DNA from: Lusitaniella coriacea LEGE 07157
Lineage (GTDB): Bacteria; Cyanobacteriota; Cyanobacteriia; Cyanobacteriales; Spirulinaceae
Assembly (NCBI RefSeq): GCF_015207425.1
Contig: NZ_JADEWZ010000003.1
Location: 124,001-188,000 of the forward strand
Reading direction: 5' to 3'
Length of the DNA stretch: 64,000 bases
Positions 523-61,933 of the stretch are shown here, piece by piece. The notes beneath the pieces are model-generated. The model did no database searches. It saw nothing but the letters and a program-made list of their open reading frames with translations, and was not told the DNA's origin. The stretch's first letter is position 1. Every line of letters begins with the position of its first letter. Position numbers and translations under genes: made by a program.

Positions 523-589
523 GAGTTTCGCAGGATCGATGGGCATATTTAAGAGTAAGACGCAAGACGATGCTTTCTACCCCAAACCC

Positions 590-3145
590 ATGTCCCAGAA
601 ATCCTTACTCTCTTCAATCCTTCTCGCCCTCGGACTCCTCTCAACTTCTGCACAAGCGCAAGTGACCCCCGACGGAACCGTTGGCACCGTCGTTACCCCC
701 GCAGGAACCACCTTCACCATCACCGGAGGCACCACAGCCGGAACCAACCTCTTCCATAGCTTTTCAGACTTCTCTGTCCCCACAGGCGGCGCAGCCATCT
801 TCAATAACAATACCAACATTGCCAACATCTTCAGTCGCGTCACCGGAGGCAGCATTTCCAATATCGATGGAGCAATCCAAGCAGCCGGGACAGCCAACCT
901 CTTCCTTCTCAACCCCAACGGTATCCTCTTTGGCTCCAACGCCTCATTACAAATTGGCGGTTCCTTCCTCGCCACCACCGCCGACAGTATGGTATTTGCA
1001 GACAGTCTCTTCAGCGCTACCCAACCCAACGCCACAACCCTACTCAGCATCAACGTACCCATCGGCTTACAAATGGGAGCTAATCCCGGCGATATTCAAG
1101 TAACCGGAACCGGACAAGCTCTTTTTACCAACATCGATCCGCTATTTGCTTTCCCCGCAATTCGGCTACCAGGTCCTGCCAACCTAGAAGTCGCACCGGG
1201 CAAAACCTTAGCTCTGGTTGGGGGAAATGTCACCCTGCAAGGTAGCGGTCTCAGAGCCACCAACGGTCGGATCGAACTTGGGGGAGCAAGCAATGGAATC
1301 GTTGGTCTACAGCCAGACCTGCTGGGCTGGAAACTAGACTACACAAGAGCATTAGCCGATCGAGATATCATTCTTAAGTCCCAATCCGCCGTCGATGCAA
1401 GCGGTTTAATTAGCGGTGGCATTCAACTCGTCGGTCGGCAAATTCAAGTCAGAGACGGTTCGATTGCTCTGATGCAATTGTTTGGCAATGCCCCCACAGC
1501 CGAGGTGAGAGTCACTGCAACAGAACGTGTTGAGGTGGACGGTTTCGACCCGACAAAACTCCTTGCCAGTCGCATTGCTCTTGAGAATCTGAGTAGTGGA
1601 GAAGCAAGCGACCTAACCGTTACAGCTCCTGAGCTTGCTATCCGCAATGGAGGAGAAATTACCCTCTATCATCTCAGCCCAGGTCGAGGAAGCAATATGA
1701 ATTTAAATATCGCTAATTCCGTCTTGATTAGCGGTCGATCTCCCCTGAACATTTCTCGCTCCAGCCGTTTAGGGACAGCCGCCCTTGGCCCTGGAGTGGC
1801 TGGCAATGTAAACATTACTACAAAAAATCTCAGGGTAGACGAAGGTGCTTTGATCGGTTCATTTGCTGGCTCGCCTTTTACGACAGGTTCGGGAGGGGAT
1901 GTCATTATCAATGCCACAGACTCGGTTGAGATCGTCGGTCCCCCTCTAACCAATCAATCTGCTCTCATCGATTCAAGCAGTATCAACTCGTCAACTTTTG
2001 GTCGTAGCGATGCGGGTCGCGTCGCGATCGATACGGCAAGGTTAATTGTAAGAGACGGTGGCGGCATTTTTACCTCGACGGTTGGTAGTGGCAATGCGGG
2101 GGAAGTTTTGGTGAATGCCTCGGAGTCGGTGTCGCTGTCGGGAGCGGGGAGAAATACCAGTATCAGTTCAGCCGCTACGATTAGTCCCATTCAAGATATT
2201 CAACAAGCATCTGGACTCTCTTTCGTTCTGTCTGGCAATGCCGGTCAAGTGGCGATTAATACCCCTAATCTCAGCGTTACAGGTATCGGTAGTACGATAT
2301 CTGTCGCTAACGAGGGGATAGGGTTTGCTGGAGATGTAGAAGTCAATGCTGGCTCCATTTTCCTTGATGATGGCGGTACGATTTTAGCGTCAACGGCTTT
2401 TGGGGAAGGCGGGAATATTATCCTCCAGACCTCAGACTTACTACTTCTGCGCAATGGCAGTCAAATTTCCGCCACTGCTGGGGGAACGGGAAATGGAGGC
2501 AATATCACCATTCAGTCTCCCTTTATTGTTGCGGTTCCCACAGAAAATAGCGATATCACTGCCAATGCCTTTGCGGGTAACGGAGGTAATATTCAAATTG
2601 CCACCAATGGCATTTTTGGCTTGCAATTCCGTCCCCAACTTACCCCCTTGAGCGATATTACAGCGAGTTCCCAATTAGGAGTCAGTGGTATTGTCAATAT
2701 TAGTGAATTCATTACCGACCCCAGTAGCGGCTTGACAGAACTCTCAACGACTTTAGCCGACTCCTCTACTCAAATCAAAAGTGACTGTTCGGCGAGCCAG
2801 GGAGGGAAGTTTATTGTCACCGGACGGGGAGGGTTGCCTCCCAATCCCGACGAACGGTTGCAAAGCGATCGCGCGTGGGTGGATATTCGGGATTTATCGG
2901 AGTTTCGAGGAGAGGCGACAAAATCAGGAGAACAGAGTATGGAACGCATTGATGCGCAAGGCGTTGAAGCGAATAGTTGGCGCACGAACGATCGCGGAAA
3001 TGTAGAATTAGTTGCCGTCATGCCCAATACAGAAGCATCAATCCCTAGCGTGAACTGCGCTGGAACAAGTTCAAAATTTCACACTCCGAGTGAGAGTTTT
3101 TCGTGGAAAATGGGCAATTTAAGAACAAGTATCCCAAAAATTTAA
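590..3145 (+). CDS. Two-partner-secretion filamentous haemagglutinin N-terminal domain protein
   Basis: A predicted secreted beta-helix adhesin of about 851 residues. I chose the ATG at 590 because it is followed at once by a signal peptide (Lys, a hydrophobic run, then AQAQ cleavage) and the typical TPS domain start; an in-frame ATG at 539 adds 17 polar residues. The TPS/haemagglutination-activity domain occupies about residues 25-150, with the family's LFHSFSDF and NPNGILFG motifs. The rest is Gly/Asn/Ser-rich beta-helix (repeated GGxI/GNV patterns), ending in a conserved tail with two cysteines. It lies 67 bp after the stop of a near-identical paralogue and just ahead of the TPR-CHAT gene on the same strand. 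Family knowledge: such proteins cross the outer membrane through a TpsB/FhaC partner, which is not seen here. The ligand is unknown. Confidence 0.88.
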   Translation: MSQKSLLSSILLALGLLSTSAQAQVTPDGTVGTVVTPAGTTFTITGGTTAGTNLFHSFSDFSVPTGGAAIFNNNTNIANIFSRVTGGSISNIDGAIQAAGTANLFLLNPNGILFGSNASLQIGGSFLATTADSMVFADSLFSATQPNATTLLSINVPIGLQMGANPGDIQVTGTGQALFTNIDPLFAFPAIRLPGPANLEVAPGKTLALVGGNVTLQGSGLRATNGRIELGGASNGIVGLQPDLLGWKLDYTRALADRDIILKSQSAVDASGLISGGIQLVGRQIQVRDGSIALMQLFGNAPTAEVRVTATERVEVDGFDPTKLLASRIALENLSSGEASDLTVTAPELAIRNGGEITLYHLSPGRGSNMNLNIANSVLISGRSPLNISRSSRLGTAALGPGVAGNVNITTKNLRVDEGALIGSFAGSPFTTGSGGDVIINATDSVEIVGPPLTNQSALIDSSSINSSTFGRSDAGRVAIDTARLIVRDGGGIFTSTVGSGNAGEVLVNASESVSLSGAGRNTSISSAATISPIQDIQQASGLSFVLSGNAGQVAINTPNLSVTGIGSTISVANEGIGFAGDVEVNAGSIFLDDGGTILASTAFGEGGNIILQTSDLLLLRNGSQISATAGGTGNGGNITIQSPFIVAVPTENSDITANAFAGNGGNIQIATNGIFGLQFRPQLTPLSDITASSQLGVSGIVNISEFITDPSSGLTELSTTLADSSTQIKSDCSASQGGKFIVTGRGGLPPNPDERLQSDRAWVDIRDLSEFRGEATKSGEQSMERIDAQGVEANSWRTNDRGNVELVAVMPNTEASIPSVNCAGTSSKFHTPSESFSWKMGNLRTSIPKI
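2573..2907 (+). repeat. 335-bp exact direct repeat, copy 2
   Basis: Identical to bases 1-335 of the window. It encodes the last beta-helix turns and the start of the C-terminal tail of the adhesin. The sequence on its right side diverges in both DNA and protein. Confidence 0.97.
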
Positions 3146-3288
3146 CTGATACAACTTTTCTCGTAAAAATAAGGTAGCCCATGAACTCCGGTCGAGATCG
3201 CAGAGTAAATATCGCCCAAGACAACACGCGAAAGTACAAATCTACATTGGGATTGAGAGGTCATTCAGCAATCCGTGGAGCAAAAAAT

Positions 3289-5820
3289 ATGCAAAAACTA
3301 ACAACGGCAATAACTTTGGGCGTTTTGGGCTTTGGACTCGCGATCGCGCCCCCATCCCTTGCAACTGAAGCGTCAAGGGTCGAGCGGGTTTCAGCAAGCG
3401 ATATCGCAACGGGAAATCCCCTTGAACGGGGGAGACAACTTTACGAAGCCGGACGCTTTGCGGCTGCTGCCAACGCTTGGGAAAACGCCGCACAAGGCTA
3501 TGAAACCCAGGGCGATCGCGCCAACCAAGCCCTAAGTTTAAGCTATCTATCCCTCGCCCATCAAGAACTCGCTCAGTGGGAAGATGCCAAGGACGCGATC
3601 GCGCGCAGCCTTAACTTACTGCAAAACGACTCAGAAAGCATTGTCCTCGCGCAAGCCCTCAACACCCAAGCGCAATTTCTCCTGGCAACCGGACAACCTC
3701 AAACCGCTCTGGAAACCTGGAAACGCGCCCAACAACGCTACGAACAAGCGGGGGATGTTTCTGGCGCTTTGGGCAGCCAGATCAATCAAGCCCAAGCCTT
3801 ACAAAGCATGGGGTTCTATCGTCGCGCCCGCAACAGTCTCGATAGCATTGCCCAGCAGCTTGACACGATGCCCGATTCTGCTCTCAAAGCAAGTGGTTTT
3901 AGGAGTTTGGGAATTGCCCTAGAAGCCATTGGGGATCTCAGAACCAGTTGGGATATGCTCAAAAAGAGTTTGACGATTGACGAAGCAATTGGCTCGAAAA
4001 ACGACCTCAGTCCGACGTTGCTCGCCCTGGGAAACGTGGCACAGGATTACGGGGCAACCGATGCCGCCCTCGATTACTTCGAGCGAGCAGAACAAGCAGC
4101 GCTCAATCCCTTAGAACGCATAGAAGCACAACTCAATCAATTTACCCTCTATGTTCAGGTCGAACAATGGTCGAAAGCAGCTTCCCTTGCAGCACAACTC
4201 CAACGCCAACTTTCCGAATTACAGCCAAGTCGGAGAACGGCTTATAGCACGGTGAATTTTGCGAATAATTTGCTGGCGATGAACTTGCAAGGACAGCCGA
4301 TCGATCGCGCGAGATTGGGAGAATTGCTGGCGAATGCGGTGCAACAAGCCAGAGCGATTAACGACCCCCGCGCGGAGGCTTATGCCCTGAATAAATGGGG
4401 CGCGCTCTACCTGCAAAACGGACAGCTTAACGAAGCCGCAGACCTGACCGAAAAATCCCTCGCGATCGCGCAAACCATTCAAGCCGCCGATATTTCCGCG
4501 CAATCTGCTTGGCAATTGGGTCGCATTCAACGGCAACAGGGGAAAAAACAGCCCGCGATCGCGTCCTACACCCAAGCGGTTAAAGCCTTACAATCCTTGC
4601 GGAAAGATCTCGTCGCAATCGATCGCAATATCCAGTTCTCCTTCCGAGAAAGTGTCGAACCCATTTACCGGGAACTGGTTGCCCTTCTTCTGGATGCCAA
4701 CCCATCTCAAAAAAATCTCGCTCAGGCTCGCGATCTGATCGAAGCCTTGCAACTCGCAGAACTCGATGATTTCTTCCGTCAAGCCTGCCTTGACGCGCAA
4801 CCGAGGCAAATCGACCAAGTGGATAAGAATGCTGCGGTTATCTACCCCATCATTTTGCCTGACCGCATTGCCGTCATCTCCTCTGCCCCCGGACAGCCGA
4901 TTCAGTACCACGCAACGCGAATTTCTCAAGCAAAAGCCGAAAAAGCCCTACGAGAGCTTCTCGCCGCGCTCAACCCCGTTTCAGACAACCGAGAACGCTT
5001 GCGCCTCTCCCAACAAGTTTACGACTGGCTGATTCGTCCCGGCGAAACCCAAGGTACATTCAAAGAGACGAAAACCCTTGTCTTCGTCCTCGACGGACTG
5101 CTGCGCAACATTCCAATGGCAGCCCTGCACGACGGCGAACAATACTTAATCGAAAAACACGGTATCGCGCTGTCTCCTGGCTTGCAACTTTTAGAACCGC
5201 GATCGCTCCAACGGGAACAACTCAATGCAATTACGGCTGGGATTAGCGAATCGCGCTTTGGGCTGAGTGCCTTACCTTCGGTTAAATCAGAACTGAAGGA
5301 AATCGCTGAATTACTGCCCTCCTCTACCCTGCTCAATCAAGAATTCACCAAAGCCGCCCTCGCCGAACAAGTCGCCAATCGTCCGAGCAATATTATCCAC
5401 CTGGCAACCCACGGACAATTTAGCTCCCGCCAAGAAGATACCTATCTTTTAACCTGGGAGGGACGGATGAACGTGCGAGAACTCTCCGATTTATTGCAAA
5501 GTCGAGAAATCAGTCAAAATGCCGCGATCGAACTTCTTGTTCTAAGTGCCTGCGATACTGCGGCTGGAGACGATCGCGCGGTGTTAGGTTTAGCTGGATT
5601 TGCCGTTCGTTCTGGCGCTCGCGCCACCGTTGCAACCCTTTGGCCCGTCAAAGATCGCGCGGCTGCTAAGTTAGTCACGGAATTTTACGAAGCCCTCAAA
5701 CAACCCGGAATCACCAAAGCTGAAGCTTTGCGTCAAGCGCAGCTCTCTCTTCTGAACGATGAGAGTTTCAGCGATCCATTTTTCTGGTCTTCTTTCGTAA
5801 TTGTAGGGAATTGGTTATAA
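3289..5820 (+). CDS. Exported TPR-CHAT caspase-like protease (cassette A)
   Basis: A protein of about 843 residues with an N-terminal signal peptide, TPR repeats and a C-terminal CHAT peptidase domain. The ATG at 3289 is preferred: it starts a clear signal peptide (MQKL, hydrophobic run, cleavage near SLA-TEA). The longer in-frame start at 3181 adds 36 polar residues. TPR-like helical pairs (LERGRQLYEAGRFAAAANAW and later repeats) fill about residues 45-440. The CHAT domain fills the last 350 residues, with the dyad His in HLATHG (codon 5410) and Cys in LSACDT (codon 5551), both intact. CHAT enzymes are clan CD cysteine peptidases, usually cytoplasmic, so an export signal is notable. The gene follows the adhesin gene and precedes DUF928 genes; a paralogue sits at 55568-58174. 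Substrate unknown. Confidence 0.9.
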   Translation: MQKLTTAITLGVLGFGLAIAPPSLATEASRVERVSASDIATGNPLERGRQLYEAGRFAAAANAWENAAQGYETQGDRANQALSLSYLSLAHQELAQWEDAKDAIARSLNLLQNDSESIVLAQALNTQAQFLLATGQPQTALETWKRAQQRYEQAGDVSGALGSQINQAQALQSMGFYRRARNSLDSIAQQLDTMPDSALKASGFRSLGIALEAIGDLRTSWDMLKKSLTIDEAIGSKNDLSPTLLALGNVAQDYGATDAALDYFERAEQAALNPLERIEAQLNQFTLYVQVEQWSKAASLAAQLQRQLSELQPSRRTAYSTVNFANNLLAMNLQGQPIDRARLGELLANAVQQARAINDPRAEAYALNKWGALYLQNGQLNEAADLTEKSLAIAQTIQAADISAQSAWQLGRIQRQQGKKQPAIASYTQAVKALQSLRKDLVAIDRNIQFSFRESVEPIYRELVALLLDANPSQKNLAQARDLIEALQLAELDDFFRQACLDAQPRQIDQVDKNAAVIYPIILPDRIAVISSAPGQPIQYHATRISQAKAEKALRELLAALNPVSDNRERLRLSQQVYDWLIRPGETQGTFKETKTLVFVLDGLLRNIPMAALHDGEQYLIEKHGIALSPGLQLLEPRSLQREQLNAITAGISESRFGLSALPSVKSELKEIAELLPSSTLLNQEFTKAALAEQVANRPSNIIHLATHGQFSSRQEDTYLLTWEGRMNVRELSDLLQSREISQNAAIELLVLSACDTAAGDDRAVLGLAGFAVRSGARATVATLWPVKDRAAAKLVTEFYEALKQPGITKAEALRQAQLSLLNDESFSDPFFWSSFVIVGNWL

Positions 5821-6307: not shown

Positions 6308-6513
6308 AATCGCGAGGTTACAGAATTTGCGCCCTTTAAACCTTAAAAAAACTATCTTAAATACAAGCCTGTAATTACAGATAGCGTTTCTTCGACTGAT
6401 GAGGTGCTTACTTTACCCTTTACCCAGCCTAAAGTTAACGTACCTTATCAAATAGAGAATTGCTTCGGGGTGCTATTAATCGTTATTTGCTGGCAATCAA
6501 TAGGAAAAATACA

Positions 6514-7539
6514 ATGAACCCTAAAACTCAATTATTAACCCGTTTGTTTAGTACTACGGTATTTGTTGCAAGTGTAAGCGCATACTCTCTGGGTGCCAGT
6601 GCGGTAAATTTTACACCCCCGCCGAATAACCAAGCACCTCGCCAAGCCACTGGAGGAGCATCCCGCACGGTGTTTACCCCTCCCAGCGATAATGCCTCCC
6701 CTCGTCAAACAGCAGGCGGTGCAGCGAGAACGGATTTCACCCCTCCCAGCGATAATGTCTCTCCCTCGCAAACAGCAGGCGGTGCGGCGAGAACGGATTT
6801 TACCCCTCCCAGCGATAATGCCTCTCCCTCGCAAACAGCAGGAGGTGCGGCGAGAACGGATTTCACCCCTCCCAGCGACAATGCCTCTCCCTCGCAAACA
6901 GCAGGAGGTGCGGCGAGAACGGACTTTGCTCCCCCTCACGATAATGTCTCTCCCCGTCAAACAGCAGGAGCGGGTTCGCGTACCCCTTCCGTTACCGCGC
7001 AAGTGCTAGGGGTACAAGCATTGACTCCCCCAAGCTATTACGGCACGACATTACAAGAACGCCCAAAAATTCTCGTCTATCTTCCCGCTTCCAGCGCGCG
7101 AGAAGTCGTGTTTAGTATAAAAGATGAGGATAAAAATTCCATCTATGAAATGACGATTCCAATTACGGGAAACGCAGGAATTGTGAGCGCTCAACTGCCT
7201 CCAGACGCTCCTGCTTTGGAAGTCGGCAAACATTATCAGTGGTATTTTGCCCTGAAAATTGATGGCGAACTGACTCCCCGCAGTCCCTTTGTGGATGGTT
7301 GGGTGGAGCGAATTGCACCCAGTTCAACTCTGGCACAGTCCTTACAGGGAGCCAGTCCGTTAGAGACGGCTGAAATCTTAGGAGAAAATGGGGTTTGGTA
7401 CGACTGCGTGGTCGCTTTAGCCGCCCTGCGAACGACACAACCCACAAACGAAAGCATCCTCGATCATTGGCAAGAGTTACTCGGTTCTGTGGAATTAGAA
7501 AATTTTGCTTCTGCTCCCTTCGTTGTATCGTTGCAGTAG
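6514..7539 (+). CDS. DUF928 family secreted protein with 21-residue tandem repeats (cassette A)
   Basis: A 341-residue protein. The ATG at 6514 begins a signal peptide (MNPKTQLLTRLF, hydrophobic, GASA cleavage); the ORF could open at 6460, but that adds residues without a signal sequence. Residues 33-158 are six tandem repeats of 21 residues with the core FTPPSDNASPSQTAGGAART. Residues from about 170 to the end are the DUF928 domain: YYGTTLQERPKILVYLPASS, then VFSIKDEDK, PPDAPALEVGKHYQW and a C-terminal helix-rich part with VWYDC. DUF928 proteins are common in cyanobacteria and have no assigned activity. The place between a CHAT protease gene and a CHASE2 kinase gene is repeated at 58 kb, so function with those partners is a reasonable inference. 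Confidence 0.87.
   Translation: MNPKTQLLTRLFSTTVFVASVSAYSLGASAVNFTPPPNNQAPRQATGGASRTVFTPPSDNASPRQTAGGAARTDFTPPSDNVSPSQTAGGAARTDFTPPSDNASPSQTAGGAARTDFTPPSDNASPSQTAGGAARTDFAPPHDNVSPRQTAGAGSRTPSVTAQVLGVQALTPPSYYGTTLQERPKILVYLPASSAREVVFSIKDEDKNSIYEMTIPITGNAGIVSAQLPPDAPALEVGKHYQWYFALKIDGELTPRSPFVDGWVERIAPSSTLAQSLQGASPLETAEILGENGVWYDCVVALAALRTTQPTNESILDHWQELLGSVELENFASAPFVVSLQ
6610..6987 (+). repeat. Six in-frame 63-bp tandem repeats in the DUF928 gene
   Basis: Six units of 63 bp (21 codons) starting at the Phe codon 6610. The four central units are nearly identical in DNA and the outer two are diverged, as in a repeat block growing from its middle. The unit encodes a Pro-rich then Gly/Ala-rich stretch with one Arg, which looks like a flexible exported linker. 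Confidence 0.93.
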
Positions 7540-7643
7540 TTGGCTTGGGAATAATAAGTGAAGGGAAAGAAAAAAGCCCAAAGGTCTTAGTTTTTCAGCA
7601 ATTTCTCGAACTTCACTATTCTTCCTAATTGTCAATGCTATCA

Positions 7644-10424
7644 ATGTGGCTCAAACTTAAAACATCACTTCAACAATCCTGGGGTCTGTTCGCGATCGCG
7701 CCTGGTGTTGCTGTTGTAATCGCCCTCAGTAGCTATCTGGGATTGTTCGATCTCCTGGAACGCTCCCTACGCGATGAATTCTTCCGCCTTCGTCCTGCTG
7801 AAGCAATAGAAGATCGAGTCGTTATTGTTACCATTGGCGAATCCGACCTCAAAGCCGTAGGAGATTGGCCAATTCCCGATGCTGTCCTAGCAGAGTTAAT
7901 TGAAAAATTACGGGAAGAACAGCCGAGGGCCATCGGTTTAGACCTCTACCGCGATCTCCCTGAAGAGCCGGGTCACCAGAAATTAATTGAGGTTTTTCGC
8001 TCAACTCCCACATTAATTGGGGTCGAGAAAGTGACGGGAAATCGCGTCGATCCGCCCCCCGCTCTCATGGAACTCAACCAAGTCGCTCTAGCCGATTTAG
8101 TCTTAGATTCCGATCAAAGCGTGCGTCGCGGTTTGCTCTCCTTAGAGAATGAGGAAAGCGTGAAAACGACCTTATCTACGCAAATGGCGTTAAAGTATCT
8201 CGAAGCAGAGGATATTCAATTAGAAGCCATTAATGCCGAACAACAAAAATTGAAACTCGGAAAAGCGACTTTTACCCCCATGCGACGCGGCGAAGCGGGT
8301 TATCGTAAAACTGACTTGGGCGGCTATCAAATTCTAATGAACTGGCGCGGTTCGGTATCCTCCTTCGCCACCATTTCCATGAGCGATGTTTTAGCAGGAA
8401 ATATTCCCGCTAATTTGTTGCGCGATCGCGCGGTTTTAATCGGCTCGACTGCTACCAGCACCAACGATTTCTTTGAAACCCCCTACAGTCGCTCCTTTGA
8501 TTTCCAACCTCAACCGCCCATGCCAGGGGTTTTCATTCACGCCAACCTCACCAGTCAAATGATTCGCGCCGCAATGGAAAATCGCTCGCTCCTTTACGGC
8601 TGGTCGCGCGAAGCACAATGGGCATGGATTCTTGCCTGGTCGATTCTGGGTGCGGGAGGAAGTAGTTGGCTCGAAAGTTCCCGTCGCGGACAACCGGGCA
8701 TTTCAACCAGTATTTTATTAATCGGTCTATCCGGTATCGGTCTGATTCTCATCGGCGGTTCCTACCTTGCCTTTATCGGCGGAATGCTCGTCCCAGTCGT
8801 ACCGCCCTTAGCCGCACTCATGATGGGTGCGATTATTACAACCAATACCTGCAAACAACAGCGACTCAAACTGACCAACCAAGAACTCGAATTTGCCAAC
8901 AATCAACTCTTTGAACACGCCAGAACCCTCAAAGAAAAAGTCAAAGAGCGCACTGCCGAACTTGCTATTGCCAAAGAAAAAGCAGAAGTCGCCAACCAAG
9001 CCAAAAGCAGTTTCATCGCCAATATGAGCCACGAACTGCGCTCCCCTCTCAACGCGATCCTCGGCTTCTCTCAAATCATGACCCGCTCTCAAAGCCTCTC
9101 TCCAGAAAACCAAGAGAGCATTGGCATTATCGCGCGCAGTGGCGAACACCTCCTCACCCTCATTAACAACGTCCTCGATCTCTCCAAAATCGAAGCCGGT
9201 AAAACCACCCTCAACCCCAAAAACTTCGATCTCCATCGCCTCCTCGACGATATCCACGATATGTTTCAACTCAAGGCAGTGGAGAAGGAACTGCAATTGT
9301 TAGTTGAGTATCTTCCCGATGTTCCCCGCTACGTTCGCACCGATGATGTCAAACTGCGCCAGATATTGATTAATCTGATCAACAACGCCCTTAAATTTAC
9401 TGAAGAAGGCGGCGTTTCGGTGCGTGTCGGTATTGCAGGAATGGCGAGCGACAATGGAAGTATTACACCTGGAGAGAAAGAAACCGTTAACCTCACCTTT
9501 GAAATCGAAGATACGGGAGCGGGAATTCCCCCGGAAGACCTCAACAGCTTATTTGAAGCCTTTACGCAAACCGCAACCGGAAGACAAGCTCAAGAAGGAA
9601 CGGGTTTAGGATTGCCCATCAGCCGCAAATTCGTTCAACTCATGGGGGGCGACATGAAGGTATCCTCCCAAGAAGGGAAAGGAACGATTTTTAGGTTTGA
9701 TATTGGCGTTTGCGTTGTCGAGGCAAGCGACTTGGAAGAACAATCGTCGAAATGTCGCGTCGTTGCCCTCGCTCCCAACCAACCCGATTATCGCATTCTG
9801 ATTGTTGATGACAAACCAATCAATCGTCAATTGTTGGTTAAATTGCTCTCTCCTCTCGGTTTTTCTCTCAAAGAAGCCTGTAACGGTCAAGAGGCGGTGG
9901 AGCTTTGGCAAGAGTGGCAACCCCATCTGATTTGGATGGATATTCAAATGCCGGTGATGGATGGTTTTATTGCTACCCGAACGATCCGAGCGCAGGAAAC
10001 CGAGCAAAAAACGGCAATTCTTGCCCTGACTGCCAGTATTTTAGAGGAAGAACGAGGAAGCGTGCTGCAAGCGGGGTGCGATGAGTTTCTGCGCAAACCG
10101 TTTCGGGAGGAGCAGATTTTTAAGGCAATGCACGAATATATCGGCGTTACCTATGTTTACGAAGATTCCACTACAACCGATTCGAGTACCACCGAGCAGA
10201 ATACGAACAAGGTTTTGAATGCGGACGCGATCGCGGAACTCCCCTCTACATTGGTTGAGACGCTGCACCAAGCTATTATTACATCCGATCTTAATGGCAT
10301 TGCAAAAGTGCTTGAAGAGGTTGCCAAAGAAAACAAACCCTTGGCAGAGGTTCTTCAGCAGTGTTTGTATAATTTTGAGTACGAACGAGTTCTCAATTTA
10401 ATGCCCGCTTCGCTCCGAACTTAA
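7644..10424 (+). CDS. CHASE2-domain hybrid histidine kinase with receiver domain (cassette A)
   Basis: A sensor kinase of about 926 residues. Starts at 7629 (TTG), 7635 and 7644 are all in frame; I chose ATG 7644 because the paralogue at 59537 also starts with Met-Trp followed by similar residues. Order: one N-terminal membrane segment, an extracytoplasmic CHASE2 domain (VVIVTIGESDL, then AIGLDLYRDLP) to about residue 320, three membrane segments to about 405, a coiled linker, HisKA with the phospho-acceptor His in MSHELRSP (codon 9030), HATPase with DTGAGIP and GTGLGLP, then a receiver domain with the acceptor Asp in WMDIQMPVMDG (codon 9939) and the conserved Lys in LRKPF. Such a hybrid passes phosphate to an internal receiver; a partner output protein is not adjacent. 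The signal sensed is unknown, but the gene order links it to the exported CHAT and DUF928 proteins. Confidence 0.92.
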   Translation: MWLKLKTSLQQSWGLFAIAPGVAVVIALSSYLGLFDLLERSLRDEFFRLRPAEAIEDRVVIVTIGESDLKAVGDWPIPDAVLAELIEKLREEQPRAIGLDLYRDLPEEPGHQKLIEVFRSTPTLIGVEKVTGNRVDPPPALMELNQVALADLVLDSDQSVRRGLLSLENEESVKTTLSTQMALKYLEAEDIQLEAINAEQQKLKLGKATFTPMRRGEAGYRKTDLGGYQILMNWRGSVSSFATISMSDVLAGNIPANLLRDRAVLIGSTATSTNDFFETPYSRSFDFQPQPPMPGVFIHANLTSQMIRAAMENRSLLYGWSREAQWAWILAWSILGAGGSSWLESSRRGQPGISTSILLIGLSGIGLILIGGSYLAFIGGMLVPVVPPLAALMMGAIITTNTCKQQRLKLTNQELEFANNQLFEHARTLKEKVKERTAELAIAKEKAEVANQAKSSFIANMSHELRSPLNAILGFSQIMTRSQSLSPENQESIGIIARSGEHLLTLINNVLDLSKIEAGKTTLNPKNFDLHRLLDDIHDMFQLKAVEKELQLLVEYLPDVPRYVRTDDVKLRQILINLINNALKFTEEGGVSVRVGIAGMASDNGSITPGEKETVNLTFEIEDTGAGIPPEDLNSLFEAFTQTATGRQAQEGTGLGLPISRKFVQLMGGDMKVSSQEGKGTIFRFDIGVCVVEASDLEEQSSKCRVVALAPNQPDYRILIVDDKPINRQLLVKLLSPLGFSLKEACNGQEAVELWQEWQPHLIWMDIQMPVMDGFIATRTIRAQETEQKTAILALTASILEEERGSVLQAGCDEFLRKPFREEQIFKAMHEYIGVTYVYEDSTTTDSSTTEQNTNKVLNADAIAELPSTLVETLHQAIITSDLNGIAKVLEEVAKENKPLAEVLQQCLYNFEYERVLNLMPASLRT

Positions 10425-54710: not shown

Positions 54711-54743
54711 GGCGTTCATTCAGAGTCCTCTAATCCTATAGTA

Positions 54744-54935
54744 TTACTTAAGTTCATTGGAAAAAGTGTGGTCTGACCCCTCAGCCCGATCCTGGGCAAT
54801 CCATGCTATTACTGTTTCATCTGCATTGTTCCAGTATTCTTGATTTTCCCATTGGTATAGAAAGAAACATTCTTTAGGAGAGTTTTGTGGGAAATATTTA
54901 GGTATTGGGTTCTCTTGAGCGCCTGTTGCAACCAC
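54744..54935 (-). CDS. Short hypothetical frame, possible gene remnant
   Basis: A 63-residue frame starting with GTG. The sequence (NPIPKYFPQNSPKECFFLYQ, then DETVIAWIAQDRAEG) is protein-like but has no known domain. The frame is closed by a stop shortly before the GTG. It could be the 3' remnant of a lost gene next to the HTH fragment. Weak support. Confidence 0.3.
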   Translation of the reverse strand: MVATGAQENPIPKYFPQNSPKECFFLYQWENQEYWNNADETVIAWIAQDRAEGSDHTFSNELK

Positions 54936-55041
54936 GAGCGATGGAATGTTTGGGCAATTGAGTTAAAGCAACGCGCGCGCACTCTCTTATCGGATGTTGA
55001 TTCTCAATATCAATATTGAAAACGAATCGTTCTGTTCAGCC

Positions 55042-55290
55042 ATGATGATCCTTAGCCCCATAACGTTGAATATTACTGAAACTTCGCAAGACTTGCAGCT
55101 TTTACTCAGCCAACAGTCACAACCGTATCTACGCGATAAGATTGTTGCGCTCTACCTCTTAAAGTTAGGTAAAGTGAAGAGTTTCTCTGATTTAGCAAAA
55201 ACTATTGGCTACGACACTAATATCATTAAACACTGGTTGCAAATTTATAGTACCCAAGGCTTACAAGGTTTCTTGCGGGTCAATCCCTAA
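55042..55290 (+). CDS. HTH protein resembling the N-terminus of IS630-type transposases
   Basis: About 82 residues (start ATG 55042 preferred; 54994 possible). A helix-turn-helix runs over residues 25-75: YLRDKIVALYLLKLGKVKSF, DLAKTIGYDTNIIKHWLQIY, STQGLQGFL. This is the pattern of the DNA-binding head of cyanobacterial IS630 transposases, but the DDE catalytic part is missing after the stop. Either a transposon remnant or a free HTH protein. It sits just upstream of the second CHAT cassette. Confidence 0.55.
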   Translation: MMILSPITLNITETSQDLQLLLSQQSQPYLRDKIVALYLLKLGKVKSFSDLAKTIGYDTNIIKHWLQIYSTQGLQGFLRVNP

Positions 55291-55567
55291 ACAACAAAAC
55301 AATCTAATACGTAATATCACGGCAATACCGGCATCAATTTTAAAGATTTGATGTCGGTTGCTTGTATAGGACAGACAATAAACTGACCCGTAGGCTAACA
55401 TATTAGCAGCAACACCCCGTTAAAGTGGATTGTCTGCTATCGGGAAGAGTGCATATTGCAAATTGCAATCGCGATCGCGTCTACTATTCTCAAACTTTTC
55501 ACATTTCCCAACTTCAATAAGCTTTAGTCGCTATTGTTGTTGGCTGTTTACAGTCGAACTGAAAATC

Positions 55568-58174
55568 ATGGTCAGTTTTCCCTTAAAACCCAGAAGAATC
55601 CTCGCAAAGATTCGATTATGGCGCAAGTCGCGATCGCGCTGGGATTTTGCCACGTTTTTGGGCTTAGTCGTCTTGACGTTCCTCTGGGTTGTTGCCCAGC
55701 CCGCGATCGCGCGCGACGGAAATTCATCCGCCCAAGCGAGCGAACCAATCTCGCTCCTGCAAGAAGGAACGCAACGCTACCAAGCCGGACAGTTTTCTGA
55801 AGCTGCCGCAATTTGGCAGCAAGCGACTCAGGAGTACGAACGTCAAGGGGATACTTTCAAGATGGTTCAAGCGCTTAACTATTTAAGCGTTGCCTATCAA
55901 GACTTGGGTCAGTGGGAAGAAGCACAAAGGGCAATCTCGAAAAGTTTGGACTATTTGCAAGCTCAGAAGGATTTGGAATCGGAAGAAATTGCCCTCTTCG
56001 CTCAAACCCTCAACAATCAAGGGAGCCTGCAACTAGCAAGAGGAGAAACGGAAACGGCTCTAGAGACTTGGAAGCAAGCAGAGGATCTCTACGATCGCGC
56101 GGGAAATGAAACGGGGAGATTGGGAAGTCAGCTCAATCAAGCCCAAGCCCTACAAGTTTTGGGTCATTACCGACGCGCTCAAAGTCAGCTAGAGAAAATT
56201 AACGCCCAACTGCAAAAGCAACCGGATTCTTTACTCAAAGCTCAAGGATTGCGAAGTTTGGGACGTACCCTGCAAACCGTAGGAGATTTAGTCCAAGCGA
56301 AAACCGTTCTCGAACAAAGTTGGCGCATCAGCGAACAATTGGGGGCAACCGGGGATACGGGAGCCACCTTATTCAGTATTGGCAACGTCGCCCGCGACCT
56401 ACAACGGGGCGATGTAGCGCTGTCCTACTATCAAGAGGCTGCAAAAAAAGCCCGAACCCCGATCGCGCGCCTTGAAGCTCAACTCAATCAACTCAGTCTC
56501 GCGATCGCTCAGTGTCGGGGAAAGACAGCAAGCTGTTCGACAGAACTTCGCCCCCTCCTCTCAGAGATCAAAGGGCAATTGATCCCCCTACAACCCAGTC
56601 GCTCTACGATCTATGCCAAAGTGAATTTGGCAGAAAGTATGATGGTCTTGGGCGAGAATCCCCAAAACACCGCGCAATGGCTTGCCACTGCGGTGCAACA
56701 AGCCAAACAACTGCATGACCCGCGATCGGAAGCTTACGCCCTCACGCAACTGGGCAAACTTTATCGTCAAACCGAACAATTCACAGAAGCCCAAAACTTA
56801 ACCCAACAAGCCACGCAGATTGCTCAGACCATCAATGCCGACGATATCGTCGCCCGTTCCGCTTGGCAAATGGGTCAACTCCTCCGACAAGCCAAAGAGA
56901 CAAAAAGCGCGATCGCGTCCTATCAAACCTCAATCAACGCCCTCAAATCCCTGCGCAGCGACCTGGTGACCGTCAATCGAGATATTCAGTTTGACTTCAA
57001 AGAAAGCGTCGAACCCGTTTATCGAGAATTTGTCAGCCTCCTCCTGCAACCGGGCGCAACCCAGGAAGATCTTCAAACCGCGCGAGAAGCAATAGAAGCC
57101 TTGCAAATTGCCGAATTGGATAACTTCTTCCAAGAAGCCTGTTTGACCGCCCATTCCGTCCAAATCGACCGCATTGATGCCAAAGGAGCCGTCGTTTATC
57201 CCATCATTTTGCGCGATCGACTAGAAGTTATTTTATCCATACCGCAACAACCCTTACGCCACTACACCACTCAACTCCCCCAAGAAGAACTCGAACGCAC
57301 CTTTCAAAAACTTTATTCTTCTTTCTACTTAGGTTATTCTGGAGAAGAACGTTTGTTGATTGCTCGACAAGTTTATGACTGGTTAATTCGACCCGTCGAA
57401 ACAGAACTGACTCAGAGCAACATCAAAACCTTAGTATTTGTTTTGGACGGTTTTCTGCAAAACCTGCCAATGGGTGCGCTCTACGACGGCAAACAGTATC
57501 TCATCGAAAAATATAGTATCGCTCTGAGTCCTGGGTTACAGATTTTTCCCAAAGGTCTAGAGACAGAGAAACCCGAAACTCTAACGGCTGGACTCACAGA
57601 AGCTCGACAAGGTTTTCCCGCACTCCCTGGCGTTCAATCGGAGGTGAAGCAAATTTCGGCTGAGGTCGAAGCCAAAGTCCTTCTGGATCGGGAATTTACC
57701 CGTAGTGCTTTCCAAGACCAGATTAAAGCCAAAGACTTTAATATCGTCCATCTGGCAACACACGGTCAATTTAGCTCCGATCCCGAACAAACCTTCTTGC
57801 TCACCTGGGACGATCGAATCAATGTCAAAGACTTCGACCGTCTCCTAAGAGCAAATCAGCAAGGAGATCGAGCGATCGACCTACTCGTTCTCAGCGCTTG
57901 CCAAACCGCCTCCGGCGATCGGCGAGCCGCTCTGGGGTTAGCGGGCTTCGCCCTGCGTTCGGGCGCTCGCAGTACCCTTGCCACCCTCTGGTCGGTGAGC
58001 GATCGTTCTACTGCCGAGCTAATGGCTGAGTTTTACCAACAGCTTTCCCGTGCTGATCGCAACTTGACCAAAGCCGAGGCACTCCGCCAAGCGCAAATCA
58101 AACTCTTGAGAACGCCAGCCTACAACCATCCCTACTTTTGGGCACCTTTTGTACTCGTTGGAAATTGGTTGTAA
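55568..58174 (+). CDS. Exported TPR-CHAT caspase-like protease (cassette B)
   Basis: A protein of 868 residues, paralogous to 3289-5820. The start ATG 55568 opens a long basic head and an export signal (LGLVVLTFLWVVAQPAIA, cleavage before RDGNS); the frame extends to 55430, but that part is not protein-like. TPR repeats (EGTQRYQAGQFSEAAAIWQQ and following) cover about residues 70-450; the CHAT domain has its dyad His in HLATHG (codon 57761) and Cys in LSACQT (codon 57899), both intact. Followed by DUF928 and a CHASE2 kinase, as in cassette A. There is no adhesin gene beside it. Probably acts outside the cytoplasm; the substrate is unknown. Confidence 0.92.
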   Translation: MVSFPLKPRRILAKIRLWRKSRSRWDFATFLGLVVLTFLWVVAQPAIARDGNSSAQASEPISLLQEGTQRYQAGQFSEAAAIWQQATQEYERQGDTFKMVQALNYLSVAYQDLGQWEEAQRAISKSLDYLQAQKDLESEEIALFAQTLNNQGSLQLARGETETALETWKQAEDLYDRAGNETGRLGSQLNQAQALQVLGHYRRAQSQLEKINAQLQKQPDSLLKAQGLRSLGRTLQTVGDLVQAKTVLEQSWRISEQLGATGDTGATLFSIGNVARDLQRGDVALSYYQEAAKKARTPIARLEAQLNQLSLAIAQCRGKTASCSTELRPLLSEIKGQLIPLQPSRSTIYAKVNLAESMMVLGENPQNTAQWLATAVQQAKQLHDPRSEAYALTQLGKLYRQTEQFTEAQNLTQQATQIAQTINADDIVARSAWQMGQLLRQAKETKSAIASYQTSINALKSLRSDLVTVNRDIQFDFKESVEPVYREFVSLLLQPGATQEDLQTAREAIEALQIAELDNFFQEACLTAHSVQIDRIDAKGAVVYPIILRDRLEVILSIPQQPLRHYTTQLPQEELERTFQKLYSSFYLGYSGEERLLIARQVYDWLIRPVETELTQSNIKTLVFVLDGFLQNLPMGALYDGKQYLIEKYSIALSPGLQIFPKGLETEKPETLTAGLTEARQGFPALPGVQSEVKQISAEVEAKVLLDREFTRSAFQDQIKAKDFNIVHLATHGQFSSDPEQTFLLTWDDRINVKDFDRLLRANQQGDRAIDLLVLSACQTASGDRRAALGLAGFALRSGARSTLATLWSVSDRSTAELMAEFYQQLSRADRNLTKAEALRQAQIKLLRTPAYNHPYFWAPFVLVGNWL

Positions 58175-58271
58175 CCTTTAACTAGGGGCTATTCCAATTG
58201 ATAAACAATCTTGACTTTAATATTCTTATCGTCCGCACGCTAAAAACCCCATTACGAAGCTTAGGAGTTCT

Positions 58272-59462
58272 ATGATGACTCTCACTAAACCTACTCCCTA
58301 CCAAATTTTTGTTTTATTCGGTCTAACCGGAATGCTCGCAATCGCTCCCAATCGGGCTGCGGCTCAAATTGTGTCTGAAGAGTTGCCTGTGAATGTGCAA
58401 TTCCAGGCTCCAAACGATGCCGCCCCCGCACGTACGACAGGTGGAGCAGTTCGCACGAAAGATCGCCCTTTAGAAGAAGCAGCAGAAACTCCTCTAGATA
58501 GTATTCAATTCCAGCTCCCTCAAGAACAATTAACCGAGGGAGAAAGTCTTATTGCTCCGACTCCCAACAACAATTCCTCTGTTTCTAGTCAGACCCAGAT
58601 TCAATTTCTCCCTCCCCAAGAACCTCATCCCGATAATATGTTTAATGGGATCGTTCGGGGAAACATCCGCTTCGCACCGCCGAAGAGTCCCACTCCCGTT
58701 GCCACAACTGGAGGGGGAATTCGAGGAAGTATCGCCTTCGCACCGCCAAATAACCCAACTCCCGTCGCCACGACTGGAGGGGGAATTCGGGGAAATATCA
58801 CCTTCGCACCGCCAAATAACCCGGCTCCTGTCGCCACAACTGGAGGGGGAATTCGGGGAAATATTACCTTCGCATCGCCAAATAACCCGGCTCCCGTTGC
58901 CACGACTGGAGGAGGGGTTCGCGGCGAAGTTGAGTCTGAGGTGATTCCTTTGCTCCCGGAAACTAAAGCAGGATATACCATTGCGCCTCGCCCCACCCTA
59001 TACCTTTACATACCGCCCACGTCCGTTCGGCAAGTCTTTTTTAGTTTGCAGGACGAAAATCGCCAAACAACCTACCAAACAACCCTGGAGATTTCGGGTC
59101 AAGGCGGAATTGTTAGCATCACGCTGCCGGAAAACGCGCCGGAATTAGAAGTTGGCAAATATTATGCTTGGTTCTTTGCTCCCATCGAACCAGACGGAAT
59201 ACTGCGCCCGGATAATTATGGGGTTACGGGGTGGATCAAGCGCGTTGCGGTTCCTTCGGAAGTACAAGATGTATCTTTAAGCCCCCTCGAACGAGCTGCG
59301 GTTTACGCTGAGTCGGGGATTTGGTACGATACGCTGGAAATCTTAGCTTCCGCTCGGCAGGTGCAAGCAGAGAATACTTCTCTCGGAACTGAGTGGACGG
59401 ATTTGCTCAAACAGGTTGGACTCGAAGCTGTTGCCGATCGACCCTTGGTCGAAGAGTTATAA
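58272..59462 (+). CDS. DUF928 family secreted protein with 22-residue tandem repeats (cassette B)
   Basis: A 396-residue protein with a signal peptide (hydrophobic run, NRAAAQ cleavage) and AGGAG four bases before the start at 58272. Several loose Pro-rich FxPP motifs (residues 38-130) lead to four regular 22-residue repeats with the core FAPPNNPTPVATTGGGIRG (residues 134-221). The DUF928 domain then has PRPTLYLYIPPTSVRQVFFS, then LPENAPELEVGKYYAWFF, with IWYDTLEIL at the end. It is clearly paralogous to 6514-7539, although the repeat unit differs in length and sequence. Activity unknown; position implies partnership with the CHAT and CHASE2 genes. Confidence 0.87.
   Translation: MMTLTKPTPYQIFVLFGLTGMLAIAPNRAAAQIVSEELPVNVQFQAPNDAAPARTTGGAVRTKDRPLEEAAETPLDSIQFQLPQEQLTEGESLIAPTPNNNSSVSSQTQIQFLPPQEPHPDNMFNGIVRGNIRFAPPKSPTPVATTGGGIRGSIAFAPPNNPTPVATTGGGIRGNITFAPPNNPAPVATTGGGIRGNITFASPNNPAPVATTGGGVRGEVESEVIPLLPETKAGYTIAPRPTLYLYIPPTSVRQVFFSLQDENRQTTYQTTLEISGQGGIVSITLPENAPELEVGKYYAWFFAPIEPDGILRPDNYGVTGWIKRVAVPSEVQDVSLSPLERAAVYAESGIWYDTLEILASARQVQAENTSLGTEWTDLLKQVGLEAVADRPLVEEL
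58671..58934 (+). repeat. Four in-frame 66-bp tandem repeats in the second DUF928 gene
   Basis: Four units of 66 bp starting at the Phe codon 58671, nearly identical in the two middle copies. The encoded unit is Pro-rich followed by Thr/Gly-rich and one Arg, like the 21-residue unit of the other DUF928 gene, but independent in DNA sequence. Confidence 0.93.
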
Positions 59463-59536
59463 AAAATTGAGAGAAGTATAATATTACTTCTTGAGCTTCC
59501 TAACCTACTAATTTCTCAATTCTGACCCGCGATCGG

Positions 59537-61933
59537 ATGTGGCAAAAACTGAAACACAAAATTGGCGAATGGCGTGGAATTCTGACAATTGCGTCTAGTG
59601 TCGCTGGATTGACGATCGCGGGAAGTGCAATTGGAGTTTTTCAATTACTGGAATGGGCGACGATCGATCGCTTATTTCAACTGCGTCCGGCAGAACCGGT
59701 CGATTCGCGTATTGTGATTGTGACGATTGACGAGCCGGATATTCAGTATCTTGGCGAATGGCCCATGAGCGATCGCGACATGGCTAGCGTTCTGAAAAAA
59801 ATCGCCGCACAACAACCTAAAGCCATTGGGATTGATATTTATCGCGATCTACCCGTCGAACCCGGACACGAAGAATTAGTAGAGGTATTTAAGTCCACGC
59901 CAAATTTGATTGCTATTGAGAAAGTCGGTGGCGAAACCGTTGCTCCTCCTCCTGCATTGGAAAAAACCGATCGAATTGCGGCAGCGGATATGGTTATCGA
60001 TGCAGATGGGAAAGTGCGTCGAGGGTTGATTGGTCTGGGCACAAAAGAGGGTGCTTGGAGAGAGGGATTGGGTGCAAAGTTAGCACTCACCTATTTAGAG
60101 GAAGCAGAGTTATCCTTAGAAACCTTGGACGAGGAGAAGCAAATTTATCAGTTAGGGGAAGCCGTTTTCGTCCCCCTACAGGGCGATGAAAGCCTTTATG
60201 TGGGTCGCGAGGGGTTTACAGGTGGAATCCCCCTAACCCTGGGAGAAATCGCTGCCCAAGTCAAACAGTGGTGGAAAGGCGATGCCGGAGGCTACCAGAT
60301 TATCTTGAACTATCGAGGGCAAATCGACCGCTTCCATCATATTTCCCTCACCGACGTGCAAGAGAACAAAATTCCGCCGGATTTAATGCGCGATCGCGTG
60401 GTCTTTTTGGGCGTAACCACCCCCAGCCTCAAGGATGTATTTCCCACCCCCTACACCAATACTTTCCTCGCCACTCCAGTTCCCACGCCGGGAGTCGTCA
60501 TCCATGCCAATCTTGCCAGCCAGATGATGAGTGGGTCGCTAGACGGTCGTTCTATGCTCTACGCTTGGGACAGAACCGCAAATTGGCTTTGGATTGTCCT
60601 TTGGTCTTTTATTGGGTCTGTGGGCAGTTGGAGTATTCTTCAAACCAAACTGGTTAACAAGAATATCTTTTTCCTCGGAACCCTCAGCTATGTTGTTTTG
60701 GCAAGCTGCTTACTGGTAGGAGGCGGTTATTTCTCCTTTCTTGCGGGTTGGGTCATTCCTTTATTTTCTCCGTTCTTTGCCCTCAGTGCTTCAGCAATTC
60801 TGGCAGCCAATTATTACAATCAATGGCAATTAAAGCAGGCGAACGAACAGTTAGAAAACTATTCTCGAACCCTGGAGTTTAGAGTTGCCGAAAGGACGAA
60901 AGCTCTCTCTCAAGCCCTAGAAGACTTAAAAGCAACCCAGGATGAATTGATTCAAAAAGAAAAAATGGCGGCTTTGGGTCAATTGGTGGCGGGAGTCGCT
61001 CATGAGGTTAATACGCCTTTGGGAGCAATTCGCTCCTCGATTAGCAATATTGATAGTTTTTTGAAAGATCGCCTCGAAGCATTGCCCGATTTTTTCCGAA
61101 CCCTATCTTCCGAACGGCAAAAAGATTTTTTCAATCTCTTGCAATATACAAAGGAAAAGACTGCTCCTCATTTATCTTTTCGGGAAAGACGCAAAATCAA
61201 ACGGCGTTTTATCGCTCAACTCGAGGATGAAGAGATTCCCGATGCAGACATTCTTGCGGACACTTTGGTGGATATTGGGGTACTTGATGCCTTAGAACCG
61301 TTGTTGCCATTACTTCGAGATCCCGATCGCGAAAATATTCTCGATATTGCGTACCAACTGACCAGTTTACAACGCAATGCGAGAACGATTTCCAATGCAA
61401 CCGATCGCGCGGCAAAAGTGGTTTTTGCTCTGAAAACCTACAGCCATTACGATGCGTCGGGGAATAAGGTCAAAACCAACGTGGTAGAGGGAATCGAAAC
61501 GGTTCTTACGCTCTACACCACCCAACTCAAACAAAGAGTGGAAGTCCTGCGGGAGTATGACGAAGAAATTCCTATCATTTGGGGGTATTCCGACGAACTC
61601 AACCAAGTTTGGACGAATTTGCTTCACAATGCGATTCAGGCAATGGATAACAAGGGGGAGTTGAAGATTGGGGTCAAGTACAAACAGGACAACCTCGAAA
61701 TCACATTTACCGATAATGGTCAAGGCATTCCCACAGAAATTCAAGACAAAATTTTTCAACCCTTTTTTACAACAAAACCGCCAGGAGAAGGGAGTGGGTT
61801 AGGACTGGATATCGTGCGGAAAATTCTGGAAAAACACCAAGGAACGATCGATTTCCAATCAGTTCCCGGCGAAACCACATTTCGAGTGATGCTTCCCATC
61901 AATTCTGGTGAGGAAATGTTGGTGTCTGCTTGA
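59537..61933 (+). CDS. CHASE2-domain sensor histidine kinase (cassette B)
   Basis: A 798-residue kinase, paralogous to 7644-10424 through the CHASE2 region. One N-terminal membrane segment, extracytoplasmic CHASE2 (RIVIVTIDEPDIQYLGEWP, IGIDIYRDLP), three membrane segments (about residues 350-430), a coiled linker, then a kinase core with the His in GVAHEVNTPLGAIRSS (codon 61001) and HATPase with DNGQGIP and GSGLGLDIV. Between the H and N boxes is an insertion of about 100 residues (from LPDFFRTLSS to YQLTSLQRNARTI), a known feature of one cyanobacterial kinase type. There is no receiver domain, unlike the cassette A kinase, so it needs a separate regulator. ATG 59537 starts directly with Met-Trp. 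Confidence 0.92.
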   Translation: MWQKLKHKIGEWRGILTIASSVAGLTIAGSAIGVFQLLEWATIDRLFQLRPAEPVDSRIVIVTIDEPDIQYLGEWPMSDRDMASVLKKIAAQQPKAIGIDIYRDLPVEPGHEELVEVFKSTPNLIAIEKVGGETVAPPPALEKTDRIAAADMVIDADGKVRRGLIGLGTKEGAWREGLGAKLALTYLEEAELSLETLDEEKQIYQLGEAVFVPLQGDESLYVGREGFTGGIPLTLGEIAAQVKQWWKGDAGGYQIILNYRGQIDRFHHISLTDVQENKIPPDLMRDRVVFLGVTTPSLKDVFPTPYTNTFLATPVPTPGVVIHANLASQMMSGSLDGRSMLYAWDRTANWLWIVLWSFIGSVGSWSILQTKLVNKNIFFLGTLSYVVLASCLLVGGGYFSFLAGWVIPLFSPFFALSASAILAANYYNQWQLKQANEQLENYSRTLEFRVAERTKALSQALEDLKATQDELIQKEKMAALGQLVAGVAHEVNTPLGAIRSSISNIDSFLKDRLEALPDFFRTLSSERQKDFFNLLQYTKEKTAPHLSFRERRKIKRRFIAQLEDEEIPDADILADTLVDIGVLDALEPLLPLLRDPDRENILDIAYQLTSLQRNARTISNATDRAAKVVFALKTYSHYDASGNKVKTNVVEGIETVLTLYTTQLKQRVEVLREYDEEIPIIWGYSDELNQVWTNLLHNAIQAMDNKGELKIGVKYKQDNLEITFTDNGQGIPTEIQDKIFQPFFTTKPPGEGSGLGLDIVRKILEKHQGTIDFQSVPGETTFRVMLPINSGEEMLVSA

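Follow-up and report, generated by a model that had tools for sequence, protein, structure and literature searches.

Cassette B of Lusitaniella coriacea as a lineage of an old cyanobacterial operon inherited as a block, possibly for outside-in surface sensing

In the adhesin-release system LapA/LapG/LapD of Pseudomonas fluorescens, a periplasmic cysteine protease (LapG type), a large surface adhesin (LapA) and an inner-membrane signalling protein (the c-di-GMP receptor LapD) cooperate (PMC3032545). Dgc2 of Leptolyngbya boryana is a CHASE2 diguanylate cyclase which represses gliding motility and biofilm formation, the ligands of CHASE2 being stated as unknown (PMC10581220). HetF of Anabaena is a membrane-linked cyanobacterial putative CHAT protease with an N-terminal CHAT domain, one TM segment, TPR and a role in cell division (PMC8406250). 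The WD40/CHASE2/DUF928 cluster of Nostoc punctiforme is an earlier case of CHASE2 and DUF928 genes found together; in the portion of that paper at hand, it is presented as a WD40 neighbourhood in one of seven surveyed species, and CHAT, an adhesin and wide conservation are not mentioned (PMC5587647). This paper is the sole mention of DUF928 found in the literature searched. Only a passing mention of sll1891 was found, and the search, confined to papers outside subscription, gave no account of the four-gene unit described below.

The window considered here is a stretch of 64,000 nucleotides of the 5.86 Mb genome of L. coriacea LEGE 07157 (C3:124001-188000). It contains two cassettes, A and B:

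539-3145, + strand: TPS-domain adhesin, cassette A (Pfam TPS, 3.9e-66)
3181-5820, + strand: TPR-CHAT putative protease, cassette A (Pfam CHAT, 4.6e-63)
6460-7539, + strand: DUF928 protein, cassette A, ATG probably at 6514 (Pfam DUF928, 5.1e-56)
7629-10424, + strand: CHASE2 hybrid kinase (HisKA-HATPase-receiver), cassette A (Pfam CHASE2, 9.4e-66; HisKA, HATPase, Response_reg)
54711-55567, no strand: gap upstream of cassette B, site of the TPS adhesin in close relatives, with one 98-aa ORF at 54994-55290
55568-58174, + strand: TPR-CHAT caspase-like putative protease, cassette B, 868 aa (Pfam CHAT, 1.1e-64; TPR_12, 4.1e-21)
58272-59462, + strand: DUF928 protein, cassette B, 396 aa (Pfam DUF928, 6.4e-52)
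59537-61933, + strand: CHASE2 receptor histidine kinase, cassette B, 798 aa (Pfam CHASE2, 1.3e-63; HATPase, 3.8e-26; weak HisKA)

The likeness to the Lap system is an analogy only: the Pfam matches are to CHAT, CHASE2-kinase and TPS, i.e., the parts are CHAT, TPS and CHASE2 with output enzymes, although second-messenger chemistry is shared by some versions of the present operon. DUF928 has no counterpart in the Lap system, and Lap signalling is inside-out whereas the operon is proposed to work outside-in. Dgc2 combines a CHASE2 sensor with GGDEF, like a third cassette described below, but is reported as a stand-alone protein that includes a PAS domain, and CHAT and DUF928 are unmentioned in its description (PMC10581220). 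Unlike HetF, the cassette CHATs have the TPR first and an export-type N-terminus; the HetF NCBIfam model weakly matches a CHAT-CHASE2 fusion protein.

The three ORFs of cassette B, all on the + strand, are paralogous to those of A and have the same order and orientation, as claimed in an earlier note made from the sequence. The identities are 48% for CHAT, 38% for DUF928 and 40% for the CHASE2 protein (510 aligned residues). The spacing, said to be the same, is similar rather than identical, the gaps in B being 97 bp (CHAT/DUF928) and 74 bp (DUF928/CHASE2). The CHAT protein of B (219 bits against PF12770, curated Pfam cut-off 24) begins with an ATG at 55568, followed by a signal-peptide-like hydrophobic N-terminus with an AxA-like site, and has a His-Cys dyad in HLATHGQF and LSACQT. 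The DUF928 protein (176 bits against PF06051, curated Pfam cut-off 26) consists of a signal-peptide-like start, tandem FAPPNNPxPVATTGGGIRG repeats and, last, the DUF928 core; in A the tandem repeats read FTPPSDNASPxQTAGGAART. The repeat units thus differ in sequence, as noted earlier, yet both expand one family motif, FxPPxxxxPxxTxGGxxRG. The DUF928 N-terminus contains one copy of this motif in 30 out of 59 trios (those used for the trees below) and two to seven copies in 25.

The CHASE2 protein of B comprises TM1, an ectodomain (about 32-345), TM2-4 and, on the C-terminal side, HisKA/HATPase. HisKA is under the Pfam cut-off (23.4 vs 26.9), but the H-box HEVNTP and GSGLGL are visible in the sequence, so that ectodomain, TM helices and H/N/G boxes of a CHASE2 receptor kinase are all recognized. 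In this kinase (59537-61933), H-box and N-box are separated by a long insert of about 150 aa. The kinase of A ends in a receiver domain; that of B is a kinase without receiver. A scan for promoters and terminators gave matches below chance level.

Cassette B is indeed a second copy, as had been proposed, but there are also many variants and a third full cassette, on the minus strand of C1 (L064:6549-11824), in which the DUF928 gene is shortened and the output is GGDEF. The genome totals are 18 CHASE2, 14 DUF928, 42 CHAT and 30 TPS matches, a few of them below cut-off. Eleven of the 14 DUF928 genes adjoin one of the 18 CHASE2 genes (simple binomial, about 1e-16); since, in addition, the gene order recurs across cyanobacteria, chance clustering is excluded. 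Most other CHASE2 proteins of the genome end in adenylate/guanylate cyclase or PAS-GGDEF. It must be noted that a GDSL lipase/acylhydrolase gene takes the place of DUF928 after a cassette-type CHAT at L079:654-4459 (C20), and that at L074:1759-6960 (C81) DUF928 adjoins a 1463-aa Peptidase_C14 caspase - nSTAND1 - WD40 protein.

For the wider comparison, 80 named loci were retrieved by alignment with the CHATs of A, B and the third cassette, and classed by profiles built from this genome. These loci are not independent, because they were found with these three CHATs and include many related Nostoc. They are nearly all cyanobacterial, two coming from one bin titled Gracilibacteria, which is probably mislabelled. 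The order CHAT>DUF928>CHASE2 is found in 43 loci and a rearranged one, DUF928>CHASE2>(kinase)>CHAT, in 7; the search for further cassettes proposed in the earlier note thus yields, besides the third one in this genome, about 50 among the 80. The other loci are CHAT>DUF928 truncated by the end of the contig (6), CHAT>DUF928 without CHASE2 (5), CHAT without DUF928 (12), at a contig end (6) or with CHASE2 alone seen (1). In L089, CHAT is fused to TPS and the order is DUF928>TPS-CHAT>CHASE2. The CHASE2 outputs of the 43 trios are HK-REC (21), adenylate cyclase (11), GGDEF (6) and HK (3), two being cut; all four kinds are present on CHASE2 proteins of L. coriacea. In Nostocales (L142, L143, L146, L149, L178-L203), a second kinase gene, of the REC-kinase type, nearly always lies 3' of CHASE2-HK-REC with a few-base overlap; it is absent from cassette A.

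In a sample based on DUF928 (45 genes of eight relatives), CHASE2 lies within two genes in 27 cases, CHAT in 20 and neither in 15. DUF928 is found with CHASE2 but without CHAT in 10 of the 45, and with CHAT but without CHASE2 in 3, as expected of a bridging part. Solo copies exist, comprising the majority of CHAT genes, three of this genome's 14 DUF928 genes and 15 of the 45 in the relatives; the proteins of the trio are therefore linked, not obligate.

Trees were calculated for CHAT, DUF928 and the CHASE2 sensor from 59 trios, with a short search for the CHAT and CHASE2 trees. Cassette A groups with the identical set of 16 cassettes in all three trees (support 100, 100/100 and 99), and cassette B with L106, L124, L125, L137 and L161, next L133 (99, 100/97 and 99). 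The position of the shortened DUF928 of the third cassette is uncertain, and the CHAT branch of L118 is suspiciously long. The between-tree distance correlations are rho 0.80, 0.885 and 0.745. When partners were swapped among paralogues within a genome, the means fell to 0.55-0.68 and the observed rho was reached in 2, 2 and 5 of 2000 draws; without three long-branch loci, rho is 0.801, 0.903 and 0.755, and values as high occurred in 3, 28 and 0 of 3000 swaps. In this genome, the true A/B/C pairing ranks first of six in every tree comparison. The tree check suggested in the earlier note thus gives congruent A and B copies, true partners doing better than swapped ones. Since A and B each keep constant partner cassettes in the three trees and withstand the swap control, they are two old, separately inherited lineages and not a local duplication: of the earlier idea of duplication as a block, inheritance as a block stands, recent duplication does not. 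That the three work as a unit is supported by the congruent trees, the swap control and the recurring order, with the qualification of the solo copies.

The B proteins share about 57-58% identity with their counterparts in a cassette of genome G004, and 38-48% with those of A. Among 12 other genomes of the family, a B-type CHAT is found in G004 alone (60%), whereas the others either reach 43-49% or give no match at the threshold applied. This patchy spread may be due to differential loss or to transfer.

The earlier note also stated that B lacks the adhesin. None is linked to B: tblastn found no adhesin remnant in the upstream gap (54711-55567), and the 98-aa ORF (54994-55290), transposase-like in appearance, has no Pfam match. 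However, in the five closest relatives of B (L106, L124, L125, L137, L161) a TPS gene precedes the cassette, either immediately or with one small ORF intervening. The TPS tree unites the A-type adhesins found in other genomes (97), TPS genes co-segregate with cassette type, and the B-type cassette adhesin of G004 has as its sister a solo TPS gene of L. coriacea, C28:65622-68441 (100). The two are 58.6% identical (next best 38%), i.e., at the level of the trio, and no CHAT lies downstream of the C28 gene. The adhesin orthologue of B is therefore probably displaced to C28, i.e., detached and not lost. A TPS gene is upstream of CHAT in 23 of the 43 CHAT>DUF928>CHASE2 loci, and a second one lies upstream of the cassette A adhesin, just beyond the window edge (C3:122117). 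From gene content and co-segregation, the adhesin is normally part of the unit. As to two-partner secretion, the A adhesin has a TPS domain, and six ShlB matches are found elsewhere in the genome, none adjoining the cassettes. It is well supported that TPS adhesin, TPR-CHAT, DUF928 and CHASE2 with an exchangeable cytoplasmic output form a unit, an operon widespread in cyanobacteria.

The dyad motif of CHAT is present in 59/59 trios, and export-type N-termini, judged by hydrophobicity alone, in 56/59 for CHAT and 50/59 for DUF928. The AF2 model of the B CHASE2 protein (pLDDT 92.1) has an N-terminal TM helix, an alpha/beta ectodomain and three more TM helices. These N-termini, the dyad and a receptor ectodomain modelled as external suggest that CHAT protease, DUF928 and CHASE2 sensor are on the same side of the membrane. 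The modelled DUF928 core (pLDDT 89.7) is an Ig/Fn3-type beta sandwich with three to four C-terminal helices. Its matches to PDB structures are weak (Ig/Fn3/CBM-like, with a TM by query of about 0.4 or less), therefore carbohydrate binding is not claimed. The CHASE2 fold has no PDB match at E <= 0.001, and sequence searches gave no convincing PDB relatives for DUF928 or the CHASE2 part.

CHAT and CHASE2 are also found in one polypeptide: five CHASE2 proteins of this genome have an N-terminal Pfam CHAT match and a sixth (C11) has a similar region without Pfam match. No recognized output domain was found in the six, and DUF928 is downstream of three of the six genes, DUF1822 being upstream of several. 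Their CHAT part, without signal peptide, would be cytoplasmic by modelled topology, which suggests that CHAT is not always external and may also serve as output. These proteins are related evidence for the cassette, not proof. A second operon type is apparent, i.e., DUF1822, a HetF-like CHAT-CHASE2 fusion and one or two DUF928 genes (L062:6158-11713 on C12, L065:3650-8880 on C37, L066:4911-10052 on C10); it also occurs in relatives (e.g., L110, L112, L117, L123), often opposite an exported-type CHAT and a TPS gene. Single ORFs with both a TPS secretion domain and CHAT are found at L033, L039 and L041, and in C2, C12, C33 and C4; the CHAT domains of these ORFs form a group sister to the cassette CHATs.

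The shared side of protease, DUF928 and sensor, together with the adhesin, suggests surface sensing linked to proteolysis. That B belongs, as one of its lineages, to an old cyanobacterial operon inherited as a block and serving such outside-in sensing is a proposal to which we give even weight. As to which protein is cleaved, how DUF928 meets CHASE2, which way the signal runs and how the cell responds, we infer the following sequence: (i) the adhesin would be exported by the two-partner pathway; (ii) in the periplasm or at the surface of the cell, the exported CHAT protease would target the adhesin, DUF928 or both; (iii) DUF928, as an Ig-like adaptor, would couple the proteolytic event to the CHASE2 ectodomain; (iv) the CHASE2 receptor would then alter its output, a histidine phosphorelay in B. 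More specifically, and only tentatively, an exported caspase-like protease may read the adhesin state and relay it via DUF928 to CHASE2, one input block thus serving four output chemistries (kinase, phosphorelay hybrid, cAMP, c-di-GMP). Several observations count against surface sensing: the 12 CHAT loci without DUF928, the third or so of DUF928 genes in the eight relatives without either partner nearby, the cytoplasmic CHAT predicted for the fusions, and export deduced solely from hydrophobicity.

The flow could also be biosynthetic: CHAT and DUF928 would secrete, process or anchor the adhesin, CHASE2 merely reporting envelope status to tune expression. Such adhesin maturation or quality control would fit the upstream TPS genes of the trios, the TPS gene adjoining CHAT in 8 of the 12 CHAT loci without DUF928, and the TPS-CHAT ORFs; nevertheless it appears rather unlikely, given the DUF928-CHASE2 pairs without CHAT nearby (10/45) and the retention of B without a linked adhesin. 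CHAT as a death effector triggered through CHASE2, i.e., a caspase-like defence or cell-death module, is improbable. The CHAT of Craspase is a caspase-like protease (PMC9729208), the catalytic dyad is retained and one DUF928 gene adjoins the caspase-STAND-WD40 protein of C81, but the cassette CHATs have export-type N-termini, the outputs are signalling domains and not toxins, and the associates are adhesins. Moreover, among the PADLOC anti-phage defence models only weak and generic matches were obtained (TPR, partial BovA), on which ground identity with a defence system is rejected. As to a recent segmental duplication of the three genes in this chromosome, without wider meaning, it would explain why A and B, 50 kb apart, are alike in order and orientation; it is rejected as most improbable, since each of the three trees puts A and B in separate supported clades, and B is nearer to the G004 cassette than to A.

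The conserved operon gives CHASE2 and DUF928 named partners, an exported-type protease and an adhesin, in tractable cyanobacteria. If the outside-in reading of adhesin and protease is true, it would provide the first known kind of CHASE2 ligand and the first function for DUF928. It bears on how filamentous cyanobacteria connect surface contact with c-di-GMP, cAMP and phosphorelays.
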